Shown one piece after another: positions 7,859-54,140 of a stretch of 58,609 nt of DNA. Where the stretch lies: the NCBI GenBank assembly GCA_002280515.1, contig NCEA01000014.1:141477-200085 (forward strand), given 5' to 3'. The position numbers and the translations under genes were made by a program. The DNA is from Rhodobacterales bacterium 32-67-9. Its GTDB lineage: Bacteria > Pseudomonadota > Alphaproteobacteria > Rhodobacterales > Rhodobacteraceae. The notes under the pieces are model-generated. The model saw only the letters and a program-made list of their open reading frames with translations. It was not told the origin of the DNA and made no database searches. The number at the start of each line of letters is the position of its first letter. Positions within the stretch are counted from its first letter, which is position 1.

Positions 7859-9829
7859 CTACTCTGCCGCGACGGCCTTCGGTTCGGCAAGCGCCACGAT
7901 GTCGAACATGATCCGGTTCAGTTCGAAATCCTTCGGCGTATAGACCCGCGCGACGCCCATCCCGGTCAGCCGCCTCGCGTCCTCGTCCGGGATGATGCCG
8001 CCGACGACGACAGGCACATGGGAAAGCCCCGCCGCCGCCATCCGGCCCATCAGTTCCTCGATCAGCGGCAGGTGGCTTCCCGACAGGATCGAGAGGCCGA
8101 CGACATGCGCCTCGGTATCCGCCGCCGCCGCCACGATCTCGGCCGGGGTGAGGCGGATGCCTTCATAGGTGATGTCCATGCCGCAGTCGCGGGCGCGCGC
8201 CGCGATCTGCTCGGCGCCGTTGGAATGACCGTCAAGACCGGGCTTGCCGACGAGGAACTTGAGTTTGCGGCCAAGCCGGGCCGAGACCGCGTCCACCGCG
8301 GAGCGAATCTCGTCGAGCCCCTCGGTGCGGTTCGACATGGATGCCGACACGCCGGTGGGGCCGCGATATTCGCCGTGCACATGCCGCATCACCCCGGCCC
8401 ATTCGCCGGTGGTGACGCCCGCCTTGGCGCAGGTGATCGACGCCGGCATCACGTTCCGGCCGGCCTTGGCGTCGGCACGCAGCGTTGCCAGCGCGGCCTG
8501 CGCCGCCGCGTCGTCCCGGGCGGCGCGCCAGCCCTCCAGCCGCGCCACCTGGTCCGCCTCGACCGAAGGATCGACGGTCAGGATCGTCCCGTCCCCGGCG
8601 GTCAGGGGCGAAGGCTCCGCCTCGGTCCAGCGGTTCACGCCGACGACGACGGTTTCCTTCGTCTCGATCCGGTTCAGCCGTTCGGAATTGCTCTCCACCA
8701 GCCGCGCCTTCATGTAGTCGATCGCGGCGATGGCGCCGCCCATGCTGTCGAGCGTGGCAAGCTCGCTCCGCGCGCCGTCCTTCAGCGCCTCGACCTTCGC
8801 CGCGATCGCCGGGTTGCCGTCAAAAAGGTCGCCGTATTCGAGAAGGTCGGTCTCGTAGGCGAGGATCTGCTGCATGCGGAGCGACCATTGCTGATCCCAG
8901 GGGCGCGGCAGGCCCAGCGCCTCGTTCCACGCCGGAAGTTGCACGGCGCGGGCGCGGGCGTTCTTGGAAAGCGTGACGGCCAGCATTTCCAGAAGGATGC
9001 GGTAGACGTTGTTTTCCGGCTGCTGTTCGGTCAGGCCAAGGGAGTTCACCTGCACGCCGTAGCGGAAGCGGCGATATTTCTCGTCCTCGATGCCATAGCG
9101 GTCGCGGCAGATCTCGTCCCAGAGCTCGGTAAAGGCGCGCATCTTGCACATCTCGGTCACGAAGCGGATGCCGGCGTTCACGAAGAAGGAGATGCGGCCG
9201 ACCATCTCGGGGAAGGCCTCAGTGGGAACCTTGGTCTTGAGGTCGTCCAGCACCGCGATGCCGGTCGCGAGCGCGAAGGCCAGTTCCTGTTCCGGCGTCG
9301 CGCCCGCCTCCTGCAAATGGTAGGAACAGACGTTCATCGGGTTCCATTTCGGCAGATGTTCGCGCGTGTAGGCGGCGACATCGGTGATCATGGCGAGCGA
9401 GGGTTTCGGCGGGCAGATATAGGTGCCGCGGGAAAGGTATTCCTTCACCAGATCGTTCTGCACCGTACCCTGCAGAAGCGAGACATCCGCCCCCTGTTCC
9501 TCGGCTACCGCGATGTAGAGCGCGAGAAGCCACGGCGCCGTCGCGTTGATCGTCATCGAGGTGTTCATCTGTTCCAGCGGGATCTGGTCGAAAAGCGCGC
9601 GCATGTCGCCCAGATGGCAGATCGGGACGCCGACCTTGCCGACCTCACCCTTCGCGCGGGGATCGTCGCTGTCATAGCCGGTCTGGGTGGGCAGGTCGAA
9701 GGCGACGGAAAGGCCGGTCTGCCCCTTGGCGAGGTTCGCGCGGTAAAGCAGGTTCGACTTCTCCGCCGCGGAATGGCCGGCGTAAGTGCGGAAGAGCCAG
9801 GGCCGGTCACGCTCGTTCTGGGTCGTCAT
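7859..9829 (-). CDS. ecm: Ethylmalonyl-CoA mutase
   Basis: A 656-aa coenzyme-B12-dependent acyl-CoA mutase that converts (2R)-ethylmalonyl-CoA to methylsuccinyl-CoA in the ethylmalonyl-CoA pathway. The N-terminal TIM-barrel part includes RTYAGHSAAEKSN and FDLPTQTGYDSD. The C-terminal cobalamin domain has the DxHxxG motif as DGHSNG near residue 533, and GGIIPDEDA. The N-terminal sequence looks like Ecm rather than methylmalonyl-CoA mutase, and ccr lies 2.4 kb away. I start it at 9829 (MTTQNERDRP); upstream in-frame residues look non-coding. Confidence 0.92.
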   Translation of the reverse strand: MTTQNERDRPWLFRTYAGHSAAEKSNLLYRANLAKGQTGLSVAFDLPTQTGYDSDDPRAKGEVGKVGVPICHLGDMRALFDQIPLEQMNTSMTINATAPWLLALYIAVAEEQGADVSLLQGTVQNDLVKEYLSRGTYICPPKPSLAMITDVAAYTREHLPKWNPMNVCSYHLQEAGATPEQELAFALATGIAVLDDLKTKVPTEAFPEMVGRISFFVNAGIRFVTEMCKMRAFTELWDEICRDRYGIEDEKYRRFRYGVQVNSLGLTEQQPENNVYRILLEMLAVTLSKNARARAVQLPAWNEALGLPRPWDQQWSLRMQQILAYETDLLEYGDLFDGNPAIAAKVEALKDGARSELATLDSMGGAIAAIDYMKARLVESNSERLNRIETKETVVVGVNRWTEAEPSPLTAGDGTILTVDPSVEADQVARLEGWRAARDDAAAQAALATLRADAKAGRNVMPASITCAKAGVTTGEWAGVMRHVHGEYRGPTGVSASMSNRTEGLDEIRSAVDAVSARLGRKLKFLVGKPGLDGHSNGAEQIAARARDCGMDITYEGIRLTPAEIVAAAADTEAHVVGLSILSGSHLPLIEELMGRMAAAGLSHVPVVVGGIIPDEDARRLTGMGVARVYTPKDFELNRIMFDIVALAEPKAVAAE

Positions 9830-36409: not shown

Positions 36410-37765
36410 ATGTCGGCCGAGCAGGGCAAGTTCGTCACCGGCAGCCTGTTGCGCCATGTGGTGACCATGTCGCTTTCGGGGGCGATGGGGTTGTCGTTCA
36501 CCTTCCTCGTCGATTTCCTCGCGCTCTGGTGGATCTCGCAGCTTCGGGTCGAGGCGATGATCGCCGCCGTCGGCATCGCCGGCACGATCCAGTTCGCCGT
36601 GATGTCCATCGCCATCGGCATGATGATCGGCGCGGTGGCGCTCGTCTCGCGCAGCATCGGCATGGGCGAGCGCGTCCGCGCACGGCGGATCGCCACCACC
36701 GGGATCGTCCTGATGGCGCTCGCGCAGGCGGCGGTGTCGGGCCTGATCTGGATCTTTCGCCGCGAGGTGCTGATCGCCTCGGGGGCGGAGGGCGAGGTTC
36801 TTGACCTTGCCGAGCATTTCCTGTCGGTCACGCTGCCCTCGATGCCGATGATCGCGGTCGGCATCGCCTCCTCGGCGCTGCTCCGGGCGGTCGGCGATGC
36901 CTGGCGGTCGATGGCGGTGACGATGGTCGCGGGCGGCGTCGCGGTGATGCTCGATCCCTTCCTGATCGTCTGGTTGGGTTGGGGGGTGACCGGCGCCGCG
37001 ATCTCCATCGTCGTGGCGCGTGGGGCGATGTGCGCCCTCGGCCTCTGGTTCGCGATCCGCACGCATGACCTCCTCGCCCGCCCGACGGCGGAGGATGTCG
37101 TGACCTTCTACCGGCCCTTCCTCGCCATCGCGCTTCCGGCCATCGCGACGCAGCTGTCCACGCCGTTCGGAAACTGGATCCTGACCCGTGAAATCGCCCA
37201 GTTCGGCGAAAGTGCCGTGGCCGGATGGGGCGTGGTGATGCGCCTCACCATTCTGGCGTTCGGCGGCATCTTCGCGCTTTCCGGCGCTATCGGCGGCATC
37301 ATCGGCCAGAATTTCGGCGCCGGCCGCCCCGACCGTGTGGGCGAGGCCTATTGGGCCGCGCTGAAGTTCTGCGCGGTCTACACGCTCGTCACCTGGGCGC
37401 TGATGGCGGCCCTGACCGGTCCGATCGCCAGTTCCTTCGGCCTGTCGGCTGACGGCGAGGCGGTGGTGCGCACCTTCACCCATTACGCGGCCTTTGCCTT
37501 CATCTTCACCGGCGCGCTCTTCGTCGCCAACGCGACGTTCAACAACCTGGCCCGGCCGCTCTGGTCCACCGCCGCCAACTGGTTTCGCGACGGTCTTCTC
37601 ATGCTGCCTGCCGGCATGGCGCTGGCCGCGCTCCACGGGGCCGAAGGCGTTGTCTGGGCCAATGCGCTCGTCAACGTGATCGCCGGCACCGTAGCCGCCT
37701 GGCTTGCCTGGCGCTATATTCGCAGCCTGAACCGGCCGCAGCCCGTCGCTGCCGCCGCCGCGTAG
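36410..37765 (+). CDS. MATE family efflux transporter
   Basis: A 451-aa multidrug/toxin extrusion protein with about 12 helices in two MatE domains (roughly 20-180 and 240-400). Typical segments are SLSGAMGLSFTFLVDFLALW, ALVSRSIGMGERVRARRI and GGIIGQNFGAGRPDRV. It couples substrate export to a Na+ or H+ gradient. It directly abuts the MFS gene and precedes msrA by 9 bp, so a stress-related transcript is possible. Confidence 0.9.
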   Translation: MSAEQGKFVTGSLLRHVVTMSLSGAMGLSFTFLVDFLALWWISQLRVEAMIAAVGIAGTIQFAVMSIAIGMMIGAVALVSRSIGMGERVRARRIATTGIVLMALAQAAVSGLIWIFRREVLIASGAEGEVLDLAEHFLSVTLPSMPMIAVGIASSALLRAVGDAWRSMAVTMVAGGVAVMLDPFLIVWLGWGVTGAAISIVVARGAMCALGLWFAIRTHDLLARPTAEDVVTFYRPFLAIALPAIATQLSTPFGNWILTREIAQFGESAVAGWGVVMRLTILAFGGIFALSGAIGGIIGQNFGAGRPDRVGEAYWAALKFCAVYTLVTWALMAALTGPIASSFGLSADGEAVVRTFTHYAAFAFIFTGALFVANATFNNLARPLWSTAANWFRDGLLMLPAGMALAALHGAEGVVWANALVNVIAGTVAAWLAWRYIRSLNRPQPVAAAAA

Positions 37766-38429: not shown

Positions 38430-38975
38430 ATGGCCCGCTCCCCGCGCGACGTCATGGTCAGCGGGGAGTGGTACTCGTGCCTCGACGACGCCTATGAAGA
38501 GATGCGCCGCGCGGCGCGGCGGGCCTGCCACCAGCACCGGCTGATGGACCCCGACGCGCGCGGCGCTTGCGCGCCGATGCTGTCGGATCTGGTGACCATT
38601 GGCCGCGACTGCTGGATCGAGGCACCGTTCCACTGCTCCTACGGGATCAACCTGACACTCGGCGACCGCGTCTACCTGAACGCGGGCTGCGTCGTGCTCG
38701 ACAGCGCGCCGGTGCGGATCGGCGCCGGCTCCATGCTCGGGCCCGGCGTCCATATCTACTGCGCCGACCATCACCGCGACGCGGAGAAGCGCCGCGCCGG
38801 GATCGAACGCGCGCTGCCGGTGACCGTCGGTGCAGATGTCTGGATCGGCGGCGGCGCGATCCTTCTGCCGGGTGTTACGGTCGGCGACGGGGCGATCATC
38901 GCCGCCGGCGCGGTCGTGTCACGTGACGTTGCGGCAGGATCACGGGTTGCAGGCATCCCCGCCCGGGGTCTATAG
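38430..38975 (+). CDS. Maltose O-acetyltransferase-like hexapeptide-repeat transferase
   Basis: A 181-aa left-handed beta-helix acetyltransferase. The N-terminal maltose-acetyltransferase domain (SGEWYSCLDDAYEEMRR) is followed by hexapeptide repeats: LTLGDRVYLNAGCVVLD, VRIGAGSMLGPGVHIYCADHH (catalytic His region) and VGADVWIGGGAILLPGVTVG. It should transfer acetyl from acetyl-CoA to a sugar or similar hydroxyl; true acceptor unknown. One base separates it from msrA. Confidence 0.88.
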   Translation: MARSPRDVMVSGEWYSCLDDAYEEMRRAARRACHQHRLMDPDARGACAPMLSDLVTIGRDCWIEAPFHCSYGINLTLGDRVYLNAGCVVLDSAPVRIGAGSMLGPGVHIYCADHHRDAEKRRAGIERALPVTVGADVWIGGGAILLPGVTVGDGAIIAAGAVVSRDVAAGSRVAGIPARGL

Positions 38976-48565: not shown

Positions 48566-48967
48566 ATGATCCACCGCCACGCGCTTCGCGTCTATTACGA
48601 GGACACCGATCTGGCCGGGATCGTCTATTACGCGAACTACCTGAAATTCATCGAACGCGCCCGCACCGAATGGGTCCGCGGCCTCGGCATCGACCAAGGC
48701 CGGCTCAAGTCAGAGGCCGGGATCGTCTTTGCCGTCCGTCGGATCGAGGGCGATTATCTTCGCCCCGCCCGGTTCGACGACGAACTGGTTGTCGAGACAC
48801 GGGCCGAGGCGGTCACCGGCGCGCGGATCGTGCTGGAGCAGGTCGTGACGCGCGGGGGAGAACGGCTCTTCCAGGCCATCGTGATGCTGGTCTGCCTGAC
48901 CGAGGCAGGGGCGCCAGCACGGGTTCCGGCAGAACTTCGCCGACAGCTTGCGCCCGCTTTGCATTGA
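48566..48967 (+). CDS. ybgC: Tol-Pal system-associated acyl-CoA thioesterase YbgC
   Basis: A 133-aa hotdog-fold thioesterase. YYEDTDLAGIVYYANYLKFI holds the catalytic Asp, followed by ERARTEW and RRIEGDYLRPARFDDEL. It hydrolyses short- or medium-chain acyl-CoA or acyl-ACP and is the usual first gene of the tol-pal cluster. tolQ follows after about 115 bp. Confidence 0.93.
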   Translation: MIHRHALRVYYEDTDLAGIVYYANYLKFIERARTEWVRGLGIDQGRLKSEAGIVFAVRRIEGDYLRPARFDDELVVETRAEAVTGARIVLEQVVTRGGERLFQAIVMLVCLTEAGAPARVPAELRRQLAPALH

Positions 48968-49082: not shown

Positions 49083-49778
49083 ATGGATACCCAAACCCTC
49101 GCGATGGCGCAGGAGATCGACTTCTCCTTGCTCGCGCTTTTCTGGCGCGCCTCCTTCGTCGTCAAACTGGTGATGATCATGCTGACCGTGGCCAGCTTCT
49201 GGTCGTGGTCGATCATCGTGCAGAAATTCATCTCCTACCGCCGGGCGCGGCACGAGGCGGCGATCTTCGACCGCGCCTTCTGGTCGGGCGAACCGCTCGA
49301 CGAGCTTTTCGAGAAGATCGGCAGCCAGCCCGACGGGCCGAGCGAGAAGATCTTCGCCTCCGGCATGGTCGAGTGGCGCCGCAGCCACCGGCAGGACGGC
49401 GAGCTGATCGCCGGGGCGCAGGCGCGGATCGACCGGTCGATGGATGTCGCCATCGTCAAGGCGACCGAGAGCCTGACGCGCGGCCTGCCGTTCCTTGCGA
49501 CCGTGGGCTCCACCGCCCCCTTCGTTGGTCTCTTCGGCACCGTCTGGGGCATCAAGGTGGCGTTCGAGCAGATCGCAATCAGCCAGAACACCTCGCTCGC
49601 CGTCGTGGCGCCCGGCATCGCCGAGGCGCTGGTGGCGACCGCGCTCGGCCTTCTCGCCGCGATCCCGGCGGTGATCTTCTACAACAAGCTTTCGACCGAC
49701 AGCGACCGGATCATCGCCGGCTACGAGGCCTTCGCCGACGAATTCGCCACCATCCTCTCGCGCCAGCTGGACGCCTGA
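49083..49778 (+). CDS. tolQ: Tol-Pal motor protein TolQ
   Basis: A 231-aa MotA/ExbB-type proton channel subunit with three transmembrane helices: about 18-42, then 137-160 (LATVGSTAPFVGLFGTVWGI) and 180-202 (GIAEALVATALGLLAAIPAV). With TolR it uses the proton gradient to energise TolA. tolR begins four bases after its stop. Confidence 0.96.
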   Translation: MDTQTLAMAQEIDFSLLALFWRASFVVKLVMIMLTVASFWSWSIIVQKFISYRRARHEAAIFDRAFWSGEPLDELFEKIGSQPDGPSEKIFASGMVEWRRSHRQDGELIAGAQARIDRSMDVAIVKATESLTRGLPFLATVGSTAPFVGLFGTVWGIKVAFEQIAISQNTSLAVVAPGIAEALVATALGLLAAIPAVIFYNKLSTDSDRIIAGYEAFADEFATILSRQLDA

Positions 49779-49782
49779 TCCG

Positions 49783-50262
49783 ATGGGTGCGGGCGTGATC
49801 AAGGGTGGCGGCGGCGGGCGGCACCGCCGCCGGGGCGGGCGCGGCAAGGCCGCGGTGATGAGCGAAATCAACGTCACGCCCTTCGTGGACGTGATGCTGG
49901 TTCTCCTGATCATCTTCATGGTGGCGGCACCGCTTCTGACCGTGGGCGTGCCCCTCGAACTGCCGAAGACCGCAGCGCAGGCGGTCTCGACCGAGCAGGA
50001 GGAGCCGCTGACCATCTCGGTGCAGGAGGACGGCACGATCTCGGTCCAGAACACGGCCGTGCCGGAAGCGGAGCTGATCGCCAAGCTCACTGCCATCGCG
50101 GCCGAGCGCAATGACGACAAGCTCTTCCTGCGCGCCGATGGCAAGATCCCTTACGAGCGGGTCGTGCAGGTGATGGGCGCGCTCAATTCCGGCGGATTCT
50201 CCAACATCGTCCTCGTCACCGACGCGGGCGGGCCGAGCTTCAACGGGCAGGCGGGGAACTAG
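49783..50262 (+). CDS. tolR: Tol-Pal motor protein TolR
   Basis: A 159-aa ExbD/TolR protein. A Gly/Arg-rich cytoplasmic N-terminus precedes one transmembrane helix (about 34-57) with the proton-carrying Asp in INVTPFVDVMLVLLIIF. The periplasmic domain ends with YERVVQVMGALNSGGFSNIV. Normal family length. Confidence 0.96.
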   Translation: MGAGVIKGGGGGRHRRRGGRGKAAVMSEINVTPFVDVMLVLLIIFMVAAPLLTVGVPLELPKTAAQAVSTEQEEPLTISVQEDGTISVQNTAVPEAELIAKLTAIAAERNDDKLFLRADGKIPYERVVQVMGALNSGGFSNIVLVTDAGGPSFNGQAGN

Positions 50263-50267
50263 GGCGG

Positions 50268-51458
50268 ATGCCCATGGACCGGTCAGAACGCATTGGCATG
50301 ATCGTCTCGGGGGTCGCGCATCTTGGCGCGATCCTCTGGCTGATCCTGGGCGGCATCTTCTTTTCGCACGATCTGCCGCCGCCGGTGACGACCGCCGAAG
50401 TCACGCTGATGTCTGAGGCCGAGTTCAGCGCGCTTCAGGCCGCCGCCCCGACCGCCGCGACCGAGGCGCCGCCGGCGCCTTCGGTGCCCGAACCGCCCGC
50501 GGCCGAGGAAACACCCGACACCCCGGTCACTGTTACCGCGCCGGAACCGGCCCCGCCGGCGGAACCGGAGCCGCAGCCCGAACCCGACGCGGCGCCGGAC
50601 GTGACCGAGCTGACCCCGCCCGAGACGGTGGTCGAGGATACCCCGCCGACGCCGCCTGCGCCGCCGGTCGAAAGCCCCGCCGACGCGCTTCCGACCGAGG
50701 TCCAGCCCGACCCGAAAGCCGCGCCGATCGTCGCGCCCGAACCGACCGAGGCGCCGGCCGAGAATGCCGATGTCGCGCCCGAGGCGGTGGCCGAGACGAC
50801 GCCCGAGCCCGCGCCGGAACCGACCCCGGTCGAGCCAGCGGAGGCCGCCGCGCCGCCCGAGACCGGGCAGGTGCTGGAGACCGAGGCCAACAAGGACCAG
50901 ACCGAGCTCGCCTCGGCCGCGCCGCAAAGCTCGGTCCGGCCGAAGTCGAAGCCCGCCAAGCCGAAGCCCGCGCCCGAACCGGAACCGGCGGCCGAGCCCG
51001 CCCCCGCCGCGACCGCCGCCGCGCCGGAGCCTGAGGCGCCGACCAAGGATGCCGTCGCCGACGCGCTGGCCGAGGCGCTGGCGGGCGACCAGTCCGATAC
51101 CCCGGCGCCGGGCACCGGCACCGCCGCCTCCGGCCCGCCGATGACGGGCGGCGAGAAGGACGCGCTGGTCATTGCGGTCAAGCAATGCTGGAACGTTGGC
51201 GCGCTCTCGACCGAAGCGCTCAACACCGTGGTCACGGTGGGCGTCAGCATGGACCAGTCCGGCATGCCGATCAGCAGTTCAATCCGCATGATCGGCTACG
51301 AAGGCGGCAGCGAGGCCGCCGCCAACCAGGCCTACGAGGCCGGCCGCCGCGCGATCATCCGCTGCGCCAAGACCGGCTATCCTTTGCCGCCCGAGAAATA
51401 CGAACAGTGGCGCGAGGTTGAAATCGTCTTCAATCCTGAAAAGATGAGGATGAAATGA
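50268..51458 (+). CDS. tolA: Cell envelope integrity protein TolA
   Basis: A 396-aa protein with one N-terminal transmembrane helix (about 10-30), a long Pro/Ala/Glu-rich periplasmic spacer (about 50-280) and a C-terminal TolA/TonB-like domain starting near [18 protein letters not shown] and ending [13 protein letters not shown]. It spans the periplasm from TolQR to TolB/Pal. An internal ATG two codons later (50274) is an alternative start. The repeat-like spacer produces long spurious antisense frames. Confidence 0.92.
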
Positions 51459-51519: not shown

Positions 51520-52676
51520 ATGAGAATTGTCCGCACGCTTTGCCTCGCACTCGCCGTCGCCGGCCTTGCCGCGCCGTTGGTCATGGCACAGTCCGGCCCG
51601 CTCCGAATCGTCATCGAGGATGGCGTGATCGAGCCCTTGCCCTTCGCCGCGCCGACCTTCATCGCCGAAAACCCCGGCGCCGCCGAGATCGCGGCGAACA
51701 TCACCCGGGTGGTGGCGGCCGACCTCTCAGGCACCGGTCTCTTCCGCGAAATCCCCGCCTCGGCCTTCATCAGCCCGGTCACGAGCTTCGACGCGCCGGT
51801 TGCCTATGCCGACTGGAAGGCGATCAATGCCCAGGCGTTGATCACCGGGGCGGTTGCGCTCGGTTCGGACGGCCGGATCAACGTGAAGTTCCGTCCCTAC
51901 GATGTCTTCTCCGGTGCCGAGCTTGGCGCGGGGATGCAGTTCGGAGGCGGCCAGGGCGACTGGCGGCGAATCGCCCACAAGGTGGCCGACCAGATCTATT
52001 CCCGCATCACCGGCGAGACCGGCTATTTTGACAGCCGCGTCGTCTATGTCTCGGAATCCGGGCCAAAAGACGCACGGCTCAAACGGCTGGCGATCATGGA
52101 TTACGACGGCGCCAATGTGCAGTACCTGACCGACAGTTCGACGATCGTGCTCGCGCCGCGATTCTCGCCTTCGGGCGACCGCATCCTCTATACCTCATTC
52201 GAGACCGGCTTTCCGCGCATCAAGCTGATGGACATCGCCTCGGTCACGTCGCAGGCGCTGGCGGAACTCAGCGGCAACATGACTTCGAAAGCGACCGCTC
52301 GGGGAACCAGCAGCTTTACATCATGCCGGTCGGCGGCGGCGAGGCGACGCGGATCAGCTTCGGCGAGGGCCGCTACGGCACCCCGGTCTGGTCGCCGCGC
52401 GGCGACATGATCGCCTTCACCAAGCAGAACGCGGGCCGCTTCCATATCGGCGTGATGCGCACCGACGGGTCGGAGGAGCGGCTGCTGACGGCCTCGTTCC
52501 TCGACGAGGGGCCGACCTGGGCGCCGAACGGCCGGGTGATCATGTTCACCCGCGAGACGTCTGGCGCCGGAGGCGTGTCGCAGCTCTACTCGGTCGACAT
52601 CTCGGGCCGCAACCTGAGTGCGGTGCCGATGGAAGGTGGGGCGTCGGACCCGGCGTGGTCGCCGCTCCTGCCATGA
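51520..52676 (+). pseudogene. tolB: tolB with internal deletion and frameshift
   Basis: The first part (51520 to about 52282) encodes a signal peptide ([20 protein letters not shown]), the TolB N-terminal domain and the first propeller blades, ending [10 protein letters not shown]. Then the frame changes: from 52284 the correct frame resumes as [20 protein letters not shown] and continues [28 protein letters not shown] to the normal end. In intact TolB about 50-60 residues, roughly one beta-propeller blade, separate NMT from FESDRSG. As written the first frame runs on to 52410 and ends in an Arg/Ala-rich tail, so full TolB cannot be made. Either a real mutation or an assembly collapse of similar blades. 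Confidence 0.85.
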
Positions 52677-52751: not shown

Positions 52752-53267
52752 ATGAACAAGTTTTCGACGATCCTTCTCCTGACTGGCGCGCTGGTCCTGT
52801 CGGCCTGCAGCAATCCCGATCGCTTCGGCGCTGGCGGGGCCGGTGCGGCCGGCGCCGGCGGCATCACCGCGGGCGGCCTTGGTGACCCCAACGATCCCAA
52901 CTCGCTCGCCTATTTCCAGCAGACGATCGGCGACCGGGTGAATTTCGCCGTCGACCAGTCGACGCTGACCGCCGAGGCGCAGTCGATTCTTGCCCAGCAG
53001 GCATCCTGGCTGAACCAGCATCCGGCCAACACCGCGATCATCGAGGGCCATGCCGACGAGCAGGGCACGCGTGAGTACAACATTGCCCTTGGTGACCGGC
53101 GCGCCAACGCGGTGAAGGCCTATCTGATCTCGCAAGGTGTGGCCGGCAACCGGCTTCAGACCGTGTCCTACGGCAAGGAACGCCCGCTCGCGGTCTGTTC
53201 GGACGAGGCCTGCTATTCGCAGAACCGCCGCGCGGTGACCGTGGTCGGCGCCGGCGCTGGCGTCTGA
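52752..53267 (+). CDS. pal: Peptidoglycan-associated lipoprotein Pal
   Basis: A 171-aa outer-membrane lipoprotein. The lipobox LSAC gives lipidated Cys19. A Gly/Ala-rich linker leads to the OmpA-like domain (about 60-165) with VNFAVDQSTLTAEAQ and EGHADEQGTREYNIALGDRR, the peptidoglycan-binding motif. The start at 52752 (MNKFSTILL) is preceded by a weak ribosome site. Intact, unlike the preceding tolB. Confidence 0.96.
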   Translation: MNKFSTILLLTGALVLSACSNPDRFGAGGAGAAGAGGITAGGLGDPNDPNSLAYFQQTIGDRVNFAVDQSTLTAEAQSILAQQASWLNQHPANTAIIEGHADEQGTREYNIALGDRRANAVKAYLISQGVAGNRLQTVSYGKERPLAVCSDEACYSQNRRAVTVVGAGAGV

Positions 53268-53279
53268 GGCGGCGCAGGG

Positions 53280-54140
53280 ATGATCCGGGTGCTTCGTTCG
53301 TTTCTGGTGGCGGCCGTGCTGGCCGCCCCCCTCTCTTTGCCTGTCTCGCAGGCCGCCGCGCAGGACAAGGCGCAGACGCTGGCCGATATCCGGGCCGAGC
53401 TTGGCGCCCTTGCGGGGGAGGTGCAGGCGCTCAGGTCCGAGCTTCTGACCGGCGGCGACGCGGCGATGCAGGCGGCGGGAGGGGCTTCGGCGCTCGACCG
53501 GATGAACGCGATCGAGGCGGCGCTGTCGCGGCTGACCTCGGAGACCGAGGCATTGCAGAACCGCGTGGGCCGTGTCGTGGCAGACGGCACCAACCGGGTC
53601 GGCGATCTCGAGTTCCGGCTTTGCGAGCTGGAAGAGGGTTGCGATCCGGCGAACCTGCCGATCACGGCCACGCTCGGCGGTGGCGAGACCGGCGGCGCCA
53701 CGGCGCCCGCCGTCACCTCGTTGCCGGCAGTCACCGGCACGGGCAAGCCCGAGCTTGCCGTCAGCGAACAGGCAGATTTCGATCGGGCGAAGGCGGCGCT
53801 CGATTCCGGTGACTTTCGCGGCGCCGTTGACCAGTTTGCGGCCTTCACCCAGTCCTATACGGGCGGCCCCCTGACCGGCGAGGCGCATTTCCTGCGCGGC
53901 GAGGCGCTGGCGCAGCTTGGCGAGACGTCGAATGCGGCGCGCGCCTATCTCGATGCGTTCTCGGGGGCGCCGGACGGGCCGCGCGCCCCGGCGGCTCTGC
54001 TGAAGCTCGGCGCGTCGCTCGGCATTCTCGGCCAGACGCAAGAGGCCTGCGTGACACTGGGCGAGGTCGGCGCCCGCTTCCCGACCGCACCGGAAGCGGT
54101 CGAGGCCGGGACCGCCCTGCGTTCGCTCGGCTGCCAGTGA
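53280..54140 (+). CDS. cpoB: Tol-Pal system protein CpoB (YbgF)
   Basis: A 286-aa periplasmic protein with a signal peptide (about 1-28), a coiled-coil segment (about 30-100; LADIRAELGALAGEVQALRSE) and C-terminal TPR repeats (about 160-280; FDRAKAALDSGDFRGAVDQF, GEAHFLRGEALAQLGETSNA). CpoB coordinates Tol with septal peptidoglycan synthesis. Its stop overlaps the tilS GTG start by 4 bp. Confidence 0.93.
   Translation: MIRVLRSFLVAAVLAAPLSLPVSQAAAQDKAQTLADIRAELGALAGEVQALRSELLTGGDAAMQAAGGASALDRMNAIEAALSRLTSETEALQNRVGRVVADGTNRVGDLEFRLCELEEGCDPANLPITATLGGGETGGATAPAVTSLPAVTGTGKPELAVSEQADFDRAKAALDSGDFRGAVDQFAAFTQSYTGGPLTGEAHFLRGEALAQLGETSNAARAYLDAFSGAPDGPRAPAALLKLGASLGILGQTQEACVTLGEVGARFPTAPEAVEAGTALRSLGCQ

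Follow-up and report, generated by a model that had tools for sequence, protein, structure and literature searches.

A frame-broken tolB inside an otherwise intact tol-pal cluster of a Rhodobacterales genome, probably caused by an assembly fault rather than by gene loss

TolB of the Tol-Pal system is represented by the NCBIfam family TIGR02800 and by solved chains such as 4r40 and 1c5k. The intact TolB of one relative (L083) scores 431.8 bits against TIGR02800, for which the cut-off is 343 bits, and matches 4r40_A with an E value of 1.1e-55. The tolB of Rhodobacterales bacterium 32-67-9, which is considered here within a window of 58,609 nucleotides (the whole stretch of DNA that was analysed), has the operon place, the TolB_N domain, and the propeller repeats in common with the described proteins. 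Unlike them, it lacks 57 profile positions, its frame is broken, and each of its pieces stays below the cut-off. Genes that are broken in frame by mis-joins during assembly are a known type of artefact. The locus and the genome around it resemble this type in that the gap is clean, the junction carries no long repeat, and several genes of one assembly are affected.

The ybgC-tolQ-tolR-tolA-tolB-pal-cpoB cluster is otherwise intact around the broken gene (Table 1), as had been predicted from the letters of the window. YbgC, TolQ, TolR, Pal, and YbgF/CpoB all score over the cut-offs of their families, and the ORF at the position of tolA is open. The latter gave no family match in profile searches including NCBIfam, and it is 87–90% identical to the ORF at the equivalent place in relatives. 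The broken gene follows tolQ, tolR, and the tolA position and precedes pal, which is the place of tolB, with tolA being assigned by position only.

Table 1. Coordinates of the tol-pal cluster in the window and of the other frame-broken genes of the same assembly (C4 and C49, other contigs; G013, the reference relative).
Feature	Location	Strand	Description
ybgC	48566..48967	+	intact; TIGR02799 over cut-off
tolQ	49083..49778	+	intact; TIGR02796 over cut-off
tolR	49783..50262	+	intact; TIGR02801 over cut-off
tolA by position	50268..51458	+	intact ORF
tolB, whole broken gene	51520-52676	+	two pieces, different frames
tolB 5′ piece	51520..52410	+	N-terminus, TolB_N domain, first propeller part, then ~42 out-of-frame residues, stop
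Junction	52282..52285	+	172 relative-borne bases absent, from alignment to relatives
tolB 3′ piece	52284..52676	+	C-terminal propeller part, other frame, open to native stop
pal	52752..53267	+	intact to last residues; TIGR02802 over cut-off
cpoB/ybgF	53280..54140	+	intact; TIGR02795 over cut-off
VWA/CoxE-like gene	C4:58954 (L166)		112-base clean frame-breaking gap vs G013
Class I/II aminotransferase	C4:96396 (L168)		97-base clean frame-breaking gap vs G013
LysR regulator	C49:79835 (L156)		71-base clean frame-breaking gap vs G013

The gene starts with the ATG at 51520, whose frame ends at a stop at 52408–52410 (296 aa), and the two pieces lie in different frames, which confirms the coordinates and the frame change of the original prediction. 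Compared with near relatives, 172 bases (3 × 57 + 1) are absent at about 52283. All seven relative loci with a printed alignment yield this size and place the gap after 52282 or 52283, so that the proposed alignment with intact relatives agrees with the anticipated loss of 3n+1 bases in the range of 150–180. The TolB_N domain is present in the 5′ piece (profile search, E 1.3e-28), which matches TIGR02800 at profile positions 6–237 with 185 bits, and the 3′ piece matches positions 295–418 with 134 bits. No complete β-propeller above the cut-off is thus found in a single frame. Between the two matches 57 profile positions are missing, which corresponds to about 1.3 blades at a blade spacing of 132–135 bases; a loss had been foreseen, and its size is slightly more than the one blade that had been estimated. 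Neither piece contains an additional stop or frameshift.

The original prediction had also proposed a search for a second tolB. In the genome as a whole (G000; 3.72 Mb, 60 contigs, 93.64% complete) the search returned a single TolB_N match and no second tolB. It also found no copy of the missing stretch elsewhere in the genome, the best of 41 weak matches reaching 38 bits over 44 bases. TolB is matched in 57 of 60 relatives, all of them with an open frame of at least 435 aa (vs 318 in G000), and the three others are two incomplete genomes and one genome of 0.6 Mb. A family-wide draw gave a TolB match in 242 of 246 genomes, G000 included, and among the matches listed every one except that of G000 has an open frame of at least 439 aa. 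The match over residues 200–380 is unbroken in 108 of 109 relative loci and stops in the remaining one (L043) at its own contig end; 111 loci were compared, consisting of these 109 and two copies of the G000 locus, with some genomes represented twice. A pairwise gap table, which is superseded by the match over residues 200–380, has 172 as the largest gap in 48 of the 109 loci and 26–169 in the other 61. No lesion like that of G000 was found in the 60 relatives, the 109 loci, or the listed matches of the family draw. Among the listed titles of papers that mention both tolB and pseudogene, none likewise points to a tolB loss in a free-living alphaproteobacterium.

The age of the break can be judged from codon differences specific to the lineage, which were scored only where the two nearest relatives, G019 and G013, agree. 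The 3′ piece carries 7 synonymous and 2 non-synonymous codon differences, a purifying pattern with a binomial P of 0.0013 against an assumed 75% non-synonymous. The 5′ piece carries 30 and 2, respectively, and the non-synonymous share does not differ significantly between the pieces (Fisher P 0.20). No decay is seen in the 3′ piece, nor in Pal, TolQ, TolR, and TolA in the codon comparison with G019 and G013. The relaxed constraint or extra lesions of an established pseudogene are not found in tolB, and judging by these codon counts its pieces look as if they are still under constraint. Since neither the pieces nor the neighbours have decayed, the break is either very young or not real. The open and conserved 3′ frame would also suit a shortened functional protein that is made through ribosomal −1 frameshifting or through internal initiation at the ATG at 52323. 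This is extremely improbable, as no slippery motif was seen by eye, the protein would remain short of 57 residues (1.3 blades), and a product from 52323 would start inside the propeller, without the N-terminal export region.

For the junction itself, recombination or slippage between blade-encoding repeats had been proposed, with a fusion at a short TTCG. In L083, the blades do repeat at equivalent positions 132–135 bases apart, and CTTCG occurs near both ends of the gap. Joining at this motif, however, removes 171 bases and stays in frame, whereas 172 are absent, so that the motif is there but its role as the fusion point is not supported. Given the spacing of the blades, recombining two of them would likewise leave the reading frame intact, and the 172-base gap does not fit their register. 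The longest exact repeat within the L083 tolB measures 12 bases (spacing 132), and the bases shared at the junction range from 0 to 4 depending on the relative (0 in G013, 1 in L083, 4 in L093). Gap size, phase, and repeat length thus disfavour recombination or slippage of blades, which is very unlikely to have made the break. A collapse of the assembly across similar blades, the form in which an assembly error had been suspected, is rejected for the same mismatch in size and frame, and an assembly fault is favoured here in a different form. Nothing unusual that would point to a GC- or hairpin-related drop-out was found in the missing stretch when compared with 60 random stretches (GC z −1.16, fold z 1.34).

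Three further conserved genes, located on two other contigs of G000 (C4 and C49), are frame-broken by clean gaps relative to G013 (Table 1). These three were picked by their frame change, and being out of frame is therefore no independent evidence. The aminotransferase is unbroken in all eight same-genus relatives compared, among them G013, from which the query was taken. The LysR regulator is matched in all eight relatives, and in the seven besides G013 it is free of stops from residue 10; a stop flagged in G020 falls on query residue 9, ahead of the domain. Three of the LysR matches have only 63–68% identity and are perhaps other members of the family. The VWA gene is matched in seven of eight relatives, with no match in G018 and two pieces on two contigs in G019. 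Five relatives besides G013 are free of stops from residue 44; stops are marked in three relatives and fall at residues 13, 33, and 40 in the two of these that the realigned match reaches. The true start of the VWA gene is likely at residue 44, downstream of the marked stops. Unrelated conserved genes of G000 are thus broken in a comparable way, which is what mis-joins during assembly would leave. Two smaller changes on C49 are each either real or an assembly error: an apparent net loss of 14 bases at C49:190918 in an 864-aa FAD oxidoreductase/aminomethyltransferase ORF and an apparent 1-base frame change at C49:186279 in a 665-aa ORF.

Over about 343 kb of alignment on three contigs, clean gaps of at least 50 bases number seven in G000 and none in G013, where the largest gap measures 45 bases. 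The three gaps of G000 other than the gene-breaking four, for which alone gene breakage is established, measure 99, 140, and 505 bases. At all seven, the best-fitting breakpoint shares 0 or 1 base in G013. Comparisons among other relatives show clean gaps of at least 50 bases as well, namely two in about 51 kb between G012 and G013 (one per side) and two in about 28 kb between G019 and G013 (both in G019), so the gap rate of G000 alone is not unusual. Relative to the window and G013, L116 (G019:C193) lacks about 903 bases near 8595 and 398 near 9611, corresponding to positions 36590–37496 and 38514–38903 of the window; these absences are perhaps gaps of G019's own assembly. Contig-end duplications, a mark of unmerged overlaps, differ little: G000 has three short ones in 560 kb, and G013 has a single one in 640 kb.

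The comparison of frame integrity retained reference ORFs with at least 70% identity and counted an ORF as whole when it lies in one frame over 90% of its length. On C11, the window's contig, 55 of the 58 ORFs kept in the stretch alignable to G013 are whole. Of the remaining three, two are ORFs around ybgC that are over-extended or in a wrong frame, and the third is tolB, so that no other real gene was found broken there. C49 and C4 together (360 kb) have 193 of 220 kept ORFs whole against syntenic G013, and the remaining 27 comprise three clean single frame-breaking gaps besides partial matches and mixed or small indels. For all 289 kept ORFs of G013, 263 are whole in one frame, 13 are split in two frames, and 16 are otherwise partial, where the classes whole and split may overlap and the totals depend on the thresholds. 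Four of the 13 split ORFs are clean gaps. The nine others comprise ORFs that are over-extended or in a wrong frame, mixed indels, and small apparent indels, including the 14-base and 1-base changes in the 864-aa and 665-aa ORFs. In the reverse comparison, 275 of 298 kept G000 ORFs are whole, 11 are split, and 15 are partial. Among the split ORFs, one represents the opposite side of the 112-base gap, and the rest show few-base or mixed indels, some where G013 is longer; no clean single gap of at least 50 bases in G013 was found among them.

Taken together, an assembly fault is more likely than a real gene loss, and on this sequence comparison the organism probably carries an ordinary tolB. Four unrelated conserved genes with clean gaps of 71–172 bases, the lack of decay in tolB, and a scaffolded assembly point to mis-joined contig ends; the breakage of the three other genes by similar gaps is what favours this explanation. 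Two contig ends inside tolB would have been joined without the intervening 172 bases, and the four gene-breaking gaps may share one technical cause in scaffolding or gap closing. A run of 46 N lies directly before the first base of the window (C11:141431–141476, L144:1431–1476), from which it follows that C11 is a scaffold and that scaffolding was done. The same run also counts against a fault, since one gap or more was evidently recorded as N and not closed. A de Bruijn assembler, moreover, makes no joins of its own between sequences whose overlap is only a few bases long. The unremarkable gap rate and the position of tolB as the sole real broken gene in the aligned part of C11 weigh in the same direction.

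The competing reading is a real and very recent deletion of the 172 bases through illegitimate end joining, in the strain or in a part of the sampled population, which would leave a null TolB. The protein would consist of the N-terminal domain and an incomplete propeller that is unlikely to bind Pal, and the other broken genes would be recent losses too. We hold this to be possible, if somewhat doubtful. The junction lies in good sequence, and clean gaps of similar size between other relatives are compatible with a true deletion. R. sphaeroides without pal is viable with a generation time that is 22% longer, according to PMC10470522, so that a strict requirement for Tol-Pal need not hold in Rhodobacterales. 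Against it, the break occurs in G000 only among the relatives compared, neither piece has decayed further, and three other conserved genes of the assembly are hit by similar gaps. The near-universal presence of tolB in the family draw speaks for the assembly fault, as does its description in PMC10470753 as a gene known or predicted to be essential in R. sphaeroides. That a Defluviimonas/Albidovulum relative has recently lost TolB while keeping TolQ, TolR, TolA, Pal, and CpoB, with several genes going by small deletions, is unlikely.

The G000 assembly is a warning in itself: because frame-breaking gaps of 71–172 bases occur in no fewer than four of its conserved genes, claims of gene loss from it are not to be trusted without reads. 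If the break in tolB were real, it would bear on whether TolB is dispensable in this group, and Tol-Pal would then operate, or have been abandoned, in the absence of the component that releases Pal.
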